Translations under genes and position numbers: made by a program | Notes under the pieces: generated by a model | Seen by the model: the letters and a program-made list of their open reading frames with translations, nothing else | What the model was told of the DNA's origin: nothing | Databases searched by the model: none | Shown: piece after piece, positions 28,990 through 30,710 of the stretch | How positions within the stretch are numbered: the stretch's first letter is position 1 | Layout: each line of letters starts with the position of its first letter | Source of the DNA: Sulfurimonas sp. | GTDB lineage: Bacteria; Campylobacterota; Campylobacteria; Campylobacterales; Sulfurimonadaceae | Assembly: GCF_026988655.1 (NCBI RefSeq) | Contig: NZ_JALSKT010000043.1 | Coordinates: forward strand, 1 to 50,261 | Length of the DNA stretch: 50,261 nucleotides | Direction: 5' to 3'

Positions 28990-29064
28990 GGCCCCGTCGT
29001 CTAGCGGTTAGGATCCATGGTTTTCATCCATGTTACAGGAGTTCAATTCTCCTCGGGGTCACCA
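28990..29064 (+). tRNA. tRNA-Glu, anticodon TTC
   Basis: A 75-nt cloverleaf with acceptor GGCCCCG pairing CGGGGTC, an anticodon stem around CATGG/CCATG with loop TTTTCAT (anticodon TTC), a T arm ending GTTCAATTC and an encoded CCA. In organisms that make Gln-tRNA by transamidation the GluRS pair is central. The neighbouring gene is a degenerate GluRS paralogue 84 bases downstream. Confidence 0.96.
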
Positions 29065-29148: not shown

Positions 29149-30429
29149 ATGTTAAGATTTGCACAAAGTCCTACTACTGATATGTCTATAGAAGACTTAA
29201 GAATCGTCCTACTCAATTATATTGTAGCTAAACAAAAAAAAGAAGATTTAATTGTTCGTATTGAAGATACTGATAAGCACAAAAACATTGAAGGAAAAGA
29301 TCAAGAAATTTTAGATATTTTAGGTCTATTTGGAATTACACATTCTCAAGTTATTTACCAAAGTCAAAATTTTAAATTTCATTCGGCTATGGCGTTACAG
29401 CTTTTACATGAGAAAAAAGCATTTGCATGTTTTTGTTCTGTAGCTTGGCTCCAAAATAAACGTCAAGAAGCAAAAGCTGCTAATAAGACATATAACTATG
29501 ATGATGCTTGTAGAAACCTTCCAGCAGAACTCGTCATAGATAATACAAATCCATTTACTATTCGTATCAATAGACCAGATGAGCCTATTGTTATAGATGA
29601 TCGTATAAAAGGTAAAGTTACATTTAGCCCAGATAAAGTAGATAGTTTTGTAATCATGCATCAAGACAAAACACCTACATATAATTTTGCTTGTGCAGTA
29701 GACGATATGCTTAGTGATATTTCCATTATTATTTGCAGTGAAGAGCAGATAAATAACTCCCCTAAACAAGAGCATGTTAGAAATACTCTTGGGTATAATA
29801 AAAAGATTGAATACGCTCATCTTCCTTCCTTTTCTAAAAAGGAAAGTAGTGACCTCTTAAGTGTTAAACGCTTACTCGAAGAAGGATATTTGCCAGAAGC
29901 AATATCAAATTATCTAATATCAACTTGCTATGAAGCACCAAAAGAGCTCTTTACCTTAGAAGAAGTAGTAGAGTGGTTCACTCTTGATAGAGTATCAAAG
30001 AACCCTACCCATTTTGATATTGACAGATTGAAGCATATAAATAAAGAATACTTAAAAGCGATGCAAGCTAAAGAGCTTTCTCGTTATGTGGGTTTTGCTG
30101 ATGCTGAGATAGGAGAACTCGCTCGTCTTTATCTTGATGAAGTAAATACTACGCTTGAGTTAAAATCTAAAATAATGCCTATCTTTGAAAAAAGAAATAT
30201 TCCTAAGAAGTTTGAAGAGCAAGCTGTTCTTATCTCAAAAACAATTAAAACAGCACCCTACTTTGAAGAATATGATGACTTTAAAGATTATCTTATCAAA
30301 GAAACAGGAGTGAAAGAAAAATATCTTGTAAACCTATTGTATCTACTTTTAACAAATGCGGAACATGGACCAGATATTTCTAAAGTTTATAAATATCTAA
30401 AAAATTATCTTATGGAGATTATTAAATGA
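29149..30429 (+). CDS. Glutamyl-tRNA synthetase paralogue lacking catalytic signatures
   Basis: This 426-residue protein follows the full-length GluRS layout of the second GluRS (GltX2) of Helicobacter and Campylobacter, with an intact RIEDTD segment (about 44), TPTYNFACAVDD and a helical anticodon-binding half. I start it at ATG 29149, with TAGGAATTTT upstream. Three ATP-binding signatures are altered. The HIGH position reads SIED (13-16, in SPTTDMSIEDLR). The RGEDH-type motif reads CSEEQ (about 196-200). The KMSKR loop is shortened to SKKESSDLLSVKR (about 229-241). The frame is otherwise intact and unbroken. It probably cannot activate glutamate. A tRNA-binding or regulatory role, or early decay, is possible. 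It is not the short YadB type, because the anticodon domain is present. Confidence 0.8.
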   Translation: MLRFAQSPTTDMSIEDLRIVLLNYIVAKQKKEDLIVRIEDTDKHKNIEGKDQEILDILGLFGITHSQVIYQSQNFKFHSAMALQLLHEKKAFACFCSVAWLQNKRQEAKAANKTYNYDDACRNLPAELVIDNTNPFTIRINRPDEPIVIDDRIKGKVTFSPDKVDSFVIMHQDKTPTYNFACAVDDMLSDISIIICSEEQINNSPKQEHVRNTLGYNKKIEYAHLPSFSKKESSDLLSVKRLLEEGYLPEAISNYLISTCYEAPKELFTLEEVVEWFTLDRVSKNPTHFDIDRLKHINKEYLKAMQAKELSRYVGFADAEIGELARLYLDEVNTTLELKSKIMPIFEKRNIPKKFEEQAVLISKTIKTAPYFEEYDDFKDYLIKETGVKEKYLVNLLYLLLTNAEHGPDISKVYKYLKNYLMEIIK

Positions 30430-30710
30430 ATGCACTAATAGAAATTATACAAGGACTCGGCGGAATATTTATTTCACTTATTAATGTTTATATATGGGTT
30501 ATCATTATTGGAGCTCTTTTAAGTTTTGTAAACCCAGACCCTTACAATCCAATTGTACAATTTTTATATAAAGTTACAAACCCAGCATATAGCTTCGTAA
30601 GACGATTTATGAGAACGGATATAAATGGTCTTGACTTTGCTCCTTTAATCATCATAGTCGTTTTACAGGTGCTTATAGTTGTATTGAGTTCTCTTCTTTA
30701 CAATTTGTAA
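30426..30710 (+). CDS. YggT family membrane protein
   Basis: A 94-residue inner-membrane protein with two hydrophobic segments (about 12-32 and 67-92), joined by the family-typical NPDPYNPIVQFLYKVTNPAYSFVRR. YggT proteins are linked to cell shape and osmotic tolerance, but the activity is unknown. The ATG overlaps the stop of the GluRS-like gene (ATTAAATGA), so the two are co-translated. Confidence 0.85.
   Translation: MNALIEIIQGLGGIFISLINVYIWVIIIGALLSFVNPDPYNPIVQFLYKVTNPAYSFVRRFMRTDINGLDFAPLIIIVVLQVLIVVLSSLLYNL

Follow-up and report, generated by a model that had tools for sequence, protein, structure and literature searches.

GltX2 without an ATP site in Sulfurimonas: displacement by GlnRS and probable retention for a non-catalytic function in the Campylobacterales

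In Helicobacter, GltX2, a second glutamyl-tRNA synthetase (GluRS) also called GluRS2, charges tRNA-Gln with glutamate for the amidotransferase GatCAB. The H. pylori enzyme is known to be specific for tRNA-Gln, as quoted in PMC3927822. A 2014 survey, which took GluRS2 to be always present in epsilonproteobacteria and stated that these bacteria are without a non-discriminating GluRS, found that six of ten hold GluRS2 together with glutaminyl-tRNA synthetase (GlnRS) and suggested that GlnRS is possibly non-functional (PMC3927822). Here, we analyse a GltX2-derived protein of Sulfurimonas sp. for which the sequences say the opposite, namely, that GluRS2 rather than GlnRS would have lost its activity. 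The gene lies at 29149..30429 on the forward strand of contig NZ_JALSKT010000043.1 (assembly GCF_026988655.1; 1.97 Mb in 87 contigs), of which positions 1 to 50,261 form the stretch analysed, hereafter the window. The data indicate that GltX2 has probably been displaced by GlnRS and retained as a protein with a non-catalytic function.

According to a 2022 review of synthetase duplications (PMC9437257), YadB (GluQRS) is the sole GluRS paralogue to have taken on a new role, and HisZ is a dead synthetase that serves in regulation; we found no description of a catalytically dead GluRS paralogue in the open-access literature. HisZ, the paralogue of histidyl-tRNA synthetase (HisRS) that serves as the regulatory subunit of HisG, shares with the window protein its relation to a synthetase, the lack of aminoacylation chemistry and retention for a role outside catalysis, the last being probable in our case. 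However, HisZ is a class II protein with a known partner, whereas the conversion of GltX2 has taken place many times, following replacement of the enzyme. YadB, likewise a GluRS paralogue, has a related catalytic domain and zinc motif but retains both its ATP site and catalytic activity and has no anticodon body; identity of the window protein with GluQRS was ruled out by its score (130 bits versus a cut-off of 277) and by the presence of the C-terminal body. In the Gln-transamidosome of Thermotoga (GluRS-GatCAB-tRNA-Gln), a GluRS is the physical partner of GatCAB, although that GluRS is active, and for the window protein such a partnership is no more than a proposal.

A full-length GltX2 and the genome encoding it

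The reading frame runs from an ATG to a TGA without internal stops and encodes 426 amino acids (aa), which match the TIGR00464 model of bacterial gltX with 313 bits over residues 1-418 (cut-off 290), as well as PF00749. The protein is orthologous over its whole length to GltX2 of Campylobacterota, such as that of H. pylori, and is encoded at the same locus, marked by tRNA-Glu and yggT. Unlike the active enzymes, it lacks HIGH, RGEDH and KMSKR, has lost many basic residues and belongs to a genome with GlnRS. Where intact orthologues carry HIGN (in the context DMHIGN), the sequence reads SIED (29185..29196, forward strand, as for all features below); the RGEDH position is CSEEQ (29734..29748), and the KMSKR loop, GKKMSKRDD in intact orthologues, is replaced and six residues shorter (29833..29853), with RIEDTD and YNFACAVDDM retained. 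The window protein thus matches the full-length gltX model but has neither the HIGH-type motif (H-phi-G-X) nor the KMSKR-type loop of active bacterial GluRS and GltX2. The open reading frame list, the profile search and the orthologue comparison therefore bear out a preliminary description, made from the letters of the window and its open reading frames, of a full-length GltX2 paralogue that had lost all three ATP-site motifs. Read errors, considered there as a possible cause, were ruled out by like losses in relatives that were sequenced independently, some of them as single-contig genomes (G002, G011, G014, G019, G115, G116, G133 and G134; G, C, L, f and g numbers are our handles for genomes, contigs, loci, families and genera). 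That the gene clears the cut-off of the gltX model though it is without an ATP site is a warning for annotation.

Two further class Ic synthetases are encoded in the genome: a canonical GluRS1 (HIGG and LSKR; contig C71) and a GlnRS that carries intact PHIGHAKS and MSKRK motifs and is fused to a YqeY-like domain (contig C58). GatA is encoded as well. Since GlnRS is encoded, direct charging of tRNA-Gln is possible, and GltX2 would be redundant for charging. A presumably active gltX elsewhere in the genome, as the preliminary description had proposed to seek, is found in GluRS1, and GlnRS in addition; the assumption made there, that the other GluRS had become non-discriminating, is unnecessary given these two synthetases.

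Motif loss and the presence of GlnRS

We compared 160 gltX2 orthologues across the Campylobacterales, 110 of them from the genus and the rest from outside it. Degenerate copies in genomes with GlnRS, here the imported GlnRS-YqeY fusion, number 101 and intact copies in genomes without it 53, leaving six discordant cases. Of 135 genomes of the genus, most contain a gltX2 orthologue and about 83 encode GlnRS (81 over the cut-off and two partial). When GlnRS is absent, 32 of 36 genus copies carry all three motifs, one has lost KMSKR only (KMSKQ) and three are degenerate. The latter come from incomplete assemblies (74-94%), and in one of them (G100) GluRS1 is not seen, either; GlnRS may therefore simply be missing from these assemblies. 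When GlnRS is present, 63 of 74 copies lack all three motifs, nine lack two and two are intact. Outside the genus, all 21 copies from genomes without GlnRS are intact, and every copy accompanied by GlnRS reads altered, in families f1 (genera g2 and g5), f3, f5, f6, f8 and f19; one of these (G252) is nearly intact, with HIGN to HIGD as its sole change. The expectation that GltX2 of relatives keeps the motifs accordingly holds for relatives without GlnRS and fails for those with it.

Active and degenerate copies co-occur within genera g5, g8, g13, g43, g54 and g59. A tree of the 160 copies, built after removal of the motif columns, offers 15 independent contrasts on well-supported branches, of which 10 are concordant, five show no difference and none is contrary (sign test, p ~0.002). 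Motif loss follows the presence of GlnRS in repeated independent cases, and displacement of GltX2 by GlnRS is well supported. Intermediate copies (G058, G066, G009, G109 and G252) represent the loss process under way.

Selection on degenerate copies and the two retained modules

Among approximately 100 degenerate copies, the frame is open in every one read, with no stops or frameshifts. We estimated the ratio of nonsynonymous to synonymous substitution rates (dN/dS) by the pairwise Nei-Gojobori method for pairs of sister copies, both of them degenerate already, and for intact pairs, some of the pairs overlapping. Within the genus, the ratio is 0.12-0.34 in 24 degenerate pairs versus 0.04-0.12 in 15 intact pairs, and degenerate pairs outside the genus yield 0.15-0.36. 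Selection on degenerate GltX2 is relaxed, yet clearly present. A plain pseudogene is ruled out by the open frames, by dN/dS of 0.12-0.36, nowhere near 1, and by recurrence; neither a broken frame nor a ratio near 1 is seen in the class to which the window gene belongs. Instead, catalytic residues are lost while the fold stays under purifying selection, as in a HisZ-like pseudo-enzyme, in line with the preliminary description, which had favoured a pseudo-enzyme over decay. Across the order, GltX2 has truly and repeatedly been converted into a protein that is catalytically dead yet under selection.

The relaxation differs strongly among domains. In degenerate versus intact pairs, dN/dS is 0.186 versus 0.043 in the N half of the Rossmann domain, 0.231 versus 0.050 in residues 141-175, 0.230 versus 0.022 in the C half of the Rossmann domain, 0.204 versus 0.105 in residues 241-300 and 0.263 versus 0.125 in residues 351-426, the second half of the anticodon body, which is relaxed about two-fold. 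The corresponding values are 0.097 versus 0.069 in the zinc/acceptor domain (residues 67-140) and 0.126 versus 0.106 in residues 301-350. Catalytic regions taken together are relaxed 6.0-fold (0.216 versus 0.037; bootstrap 4.3-8.8), and the two retained modules 1.3-fold (0.109 versus 0.083; 0.97-1.9). These modules were picked after the domain table had been seen, and the sole independent check is provided by seven degenerate pairs from outside the genus (f5, f8 and f19), in which the modules show 0.095 versus 0.214 for the catalytic regions, six of the seven pairs agreeing. Purifying selection persists and is concentrated on these two modules: the acceptor domain, which binds zinc, and the first of the helical domains in the anticodon body.

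The first module (29347..29568) contains the motif C94-x-C96-x20-Y117-x3-C121, present in 73 of 73 degenerate genus copies and identical in pattern to the canonical GluRS zinc motif CxCx20Yx3C (PMC4381286). The second (30049..30198, residues 301-350) is recognizable by ELSRYVGFAD..IG / TT.ELK.KI. Overall, 92 positions are kept in at least 97% of degenerate copies, and 67 of these are not common to GluRS1, indicating that the kept part is largely GltX2-specific. In the family alignment, we looked for a dip in the synonymous rate over the two modules and found none; the constraint therefore acts on the protein, and constraint at the RNA level is ruled out there. The sole strong synonymous dip, seen in both classes of copies, covers the last seven gltX2 codons (30408-30429), where the yggT ribosome-binding site lies.

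Possible roles, partners and neighbouring genes

We propose that GltX2, as a second GluRS, would have become redundant once an ancestor acquired GlnRS, after which the ATP site would decay and the KMSKR loop be deleted, the protein being retained for a pre-existing non-catalytic function located on the two retained modules. Domain-specific constraint on degenerate copies suggests that GltX2 likely had, and keeps, a function of this kind, and we infer that the degenerate protein is folded and acts through binding; a role other than charging, anticipated by the preliminary description, is the best reading. As far as we found, such a second role of GltX2 has no earlier description in the literature. 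Asparaginyl-tRNA synthetase (AsnRS) was not found in a set of 135 genomes or in one of 40, and GatB scores over the cut-off in 38 of 40 genomes tested, which indicates that GatCAB is still needed for tRNA-Asn. This need makes GatCAB a plausible candidate and our best, though tentative, guess at the partner; the pseudo-synthetase would then belong, as a component without catalysis, to the tRNA-Asn route that remains. The chances appear evenly balanced that in every GltX2 of the Campylobacterales, the active enzymes of pathogens and free-living relatives among them, both modules bear a second function other than aminoacylation; replacement by GlnRS would then have exposed it, many times over, as a free-standing pseudo-synthetase. 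The replacements amount to a natural experiment, many times repeated, in which a synthetase is relieved of its catalytic task and the site of a hidden second function can be read from what selection continues to preserve.

The partner might instead be GlnRS or GluRS1, with degenerate GltX2 as a non-catalytic subunit or regulator, much as HisZ, the precedent for a dead synthetase paralogue (PMC9437257), acts on HisG. Consistent with this possibility, glnS lies within the ~1.5 kb flank upstream in 44 of 74 genus copies (38 divergent) and close upstream in 15 of 31 copies outside the genus (12 on the same strand, with the order glnS-gltX2-yggT in f19). However, this adjacency may reflect only the insertion site of glnS or co-transfer, and the modules are equally constrained in genomes without GlnRS, so that the function is older than GlnRS, an argument that spares GluRS1; we consider such a partner conceivable but rather doubtful. 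Binding of tRNA-Gln or tRNA-Glu by a non-catalytic tRNA chaperone or sensor would fit the retention of fold residues in the tRNA-facing modules but appears unlikely, and less likely than the preliminary description had supposed. Among module positions invariant in active copies, Lys/Arg is the least retained class (74%, versus 97% for hydrophobic/Cys and 90% for Asp/Glu), the median net charge drops from -10 in intact to -17 in degenerate copies (the window copy, at -8, is less extreme), and relaxation extends to the second half of the anticodon body. R105, which we take by count to align with Arg116 of T. thermophilus GluRS, in the numbering we presume for that enzyme, is kept in 59% of degenerate copies. 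Arg116 contacts A73 of tRNA-Glu (PMC4381286). The preferential loss of basic residues points to a protein partner rather than tRNA.

Could the frame be kept for the sake of yggT? The chain would then be functionless and merely non-toxic, its translation being coupled to that of yggT through the ATGA overlap and an internal ribosome site. The 4-nucleotide (nt) overlap is indeed widely kept (34 of 34 intact and 54 of 73 degenerate copies, with 1 nt in 12 more), synonymous sites are constrained in the last seven codons, and one GltX2 shortened to 278 aa with loss of the anticodon body (G269, L217) retains its C-terminal end and the overlap. Coupling does not, however, predict two internal modules near dN/dS 0.1 amid a six-fold catalytic relaxation or complete conservation of the zinc motif, and yggT is present without gltX2 in nine of 14 genomes that lost gltX2, which makes this explanation quite improbable. 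Slow decay, with a relic heading for loss and partly constrained only because the loss is recent in each lineage, is accommodated by the graded intermediates G058, G066 and G252 and by complete loss in some lineages and eroded modules in others. Yet degenerate sister pairs remain under the constraint reported above at dS up to 1.5, with not one disrupted frame, and we regard decay as very improbable.

Several observations, along with the choice of the modules after inspection of the domain table, weigh against retention for a non-catalytic function and against GatCAB as the partner. Modules have eroded separately, the anticodon body being gone in G269 and in G169 (313 aa, L193) and the zinc cysteines in G184, G208 and G220, which suits slow decay towards loss. 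At least three near-complete genus genomes with GlnRS (G045, G127 and G091) and several outside the genus (f5, f6, f9 and f19) lack gltX2 and keep GatB, so that the function can be dispensed with and has no strict link to GatCAB; nor does loss of gltX2 track loss of GatCAB. The AlphaFold2 model, run on nine sequences, is moderate (predicted local distance difference test 70, predicted template modelling score 0.63), and its best Foldseek matches are all bacterial GluRS, with no functional hint beyond that. The non-catalytic function is not universally essential. Loss of gltX2 through gain of AsnRS and loss of GatCAB was ruled out, AsnRS being absent and GatB kept in the genomes without gltX2.

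A tRNA-Glu gene (TTC) at 28990..29064 lies 84 nt upstream of gltX2. This co-location, pointed out in the preliminary description, already exists at 22 of 34 loci with active GltX2, from which it has been inherited, and hence says nothing about the pseudo-enzyme. As for yggT (30426..30710), with which co-translation was also suggested there, its start codon lies within the gltX2 stop (ATGA, 30426-30429), and GGAG, its probable ribosome-binding site, within gltX2 codons (30414..30417). In G045, G127 and G091, yggT is gone along with gltX2, which one deletion would explain. In L225, L229, G250 and G296, where gltX2 has been lost, yggT stands alone or directly behind glnS and thus does not need gltX2 upstream.

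The gatB gene is out of frame after approximately codon 336 in G127 (G127:C31:57166-58592), carries one TAG in G254 (G254:C1:77304-78728) and is not over the cut-off in G220; each case may be an assembly error, and AsnRS is absent from all three genomes. Finally, the near-complete genomes G189, G201 and G316 (f13 g41), G149 and G167 (f16), and G153 (f20) have neither GltX2 nor GlnRS and keep GatB; the one GluRS of each may therefore be non-discriminating, at odds with what was stated in 2014 for epsilonproteobacteria.
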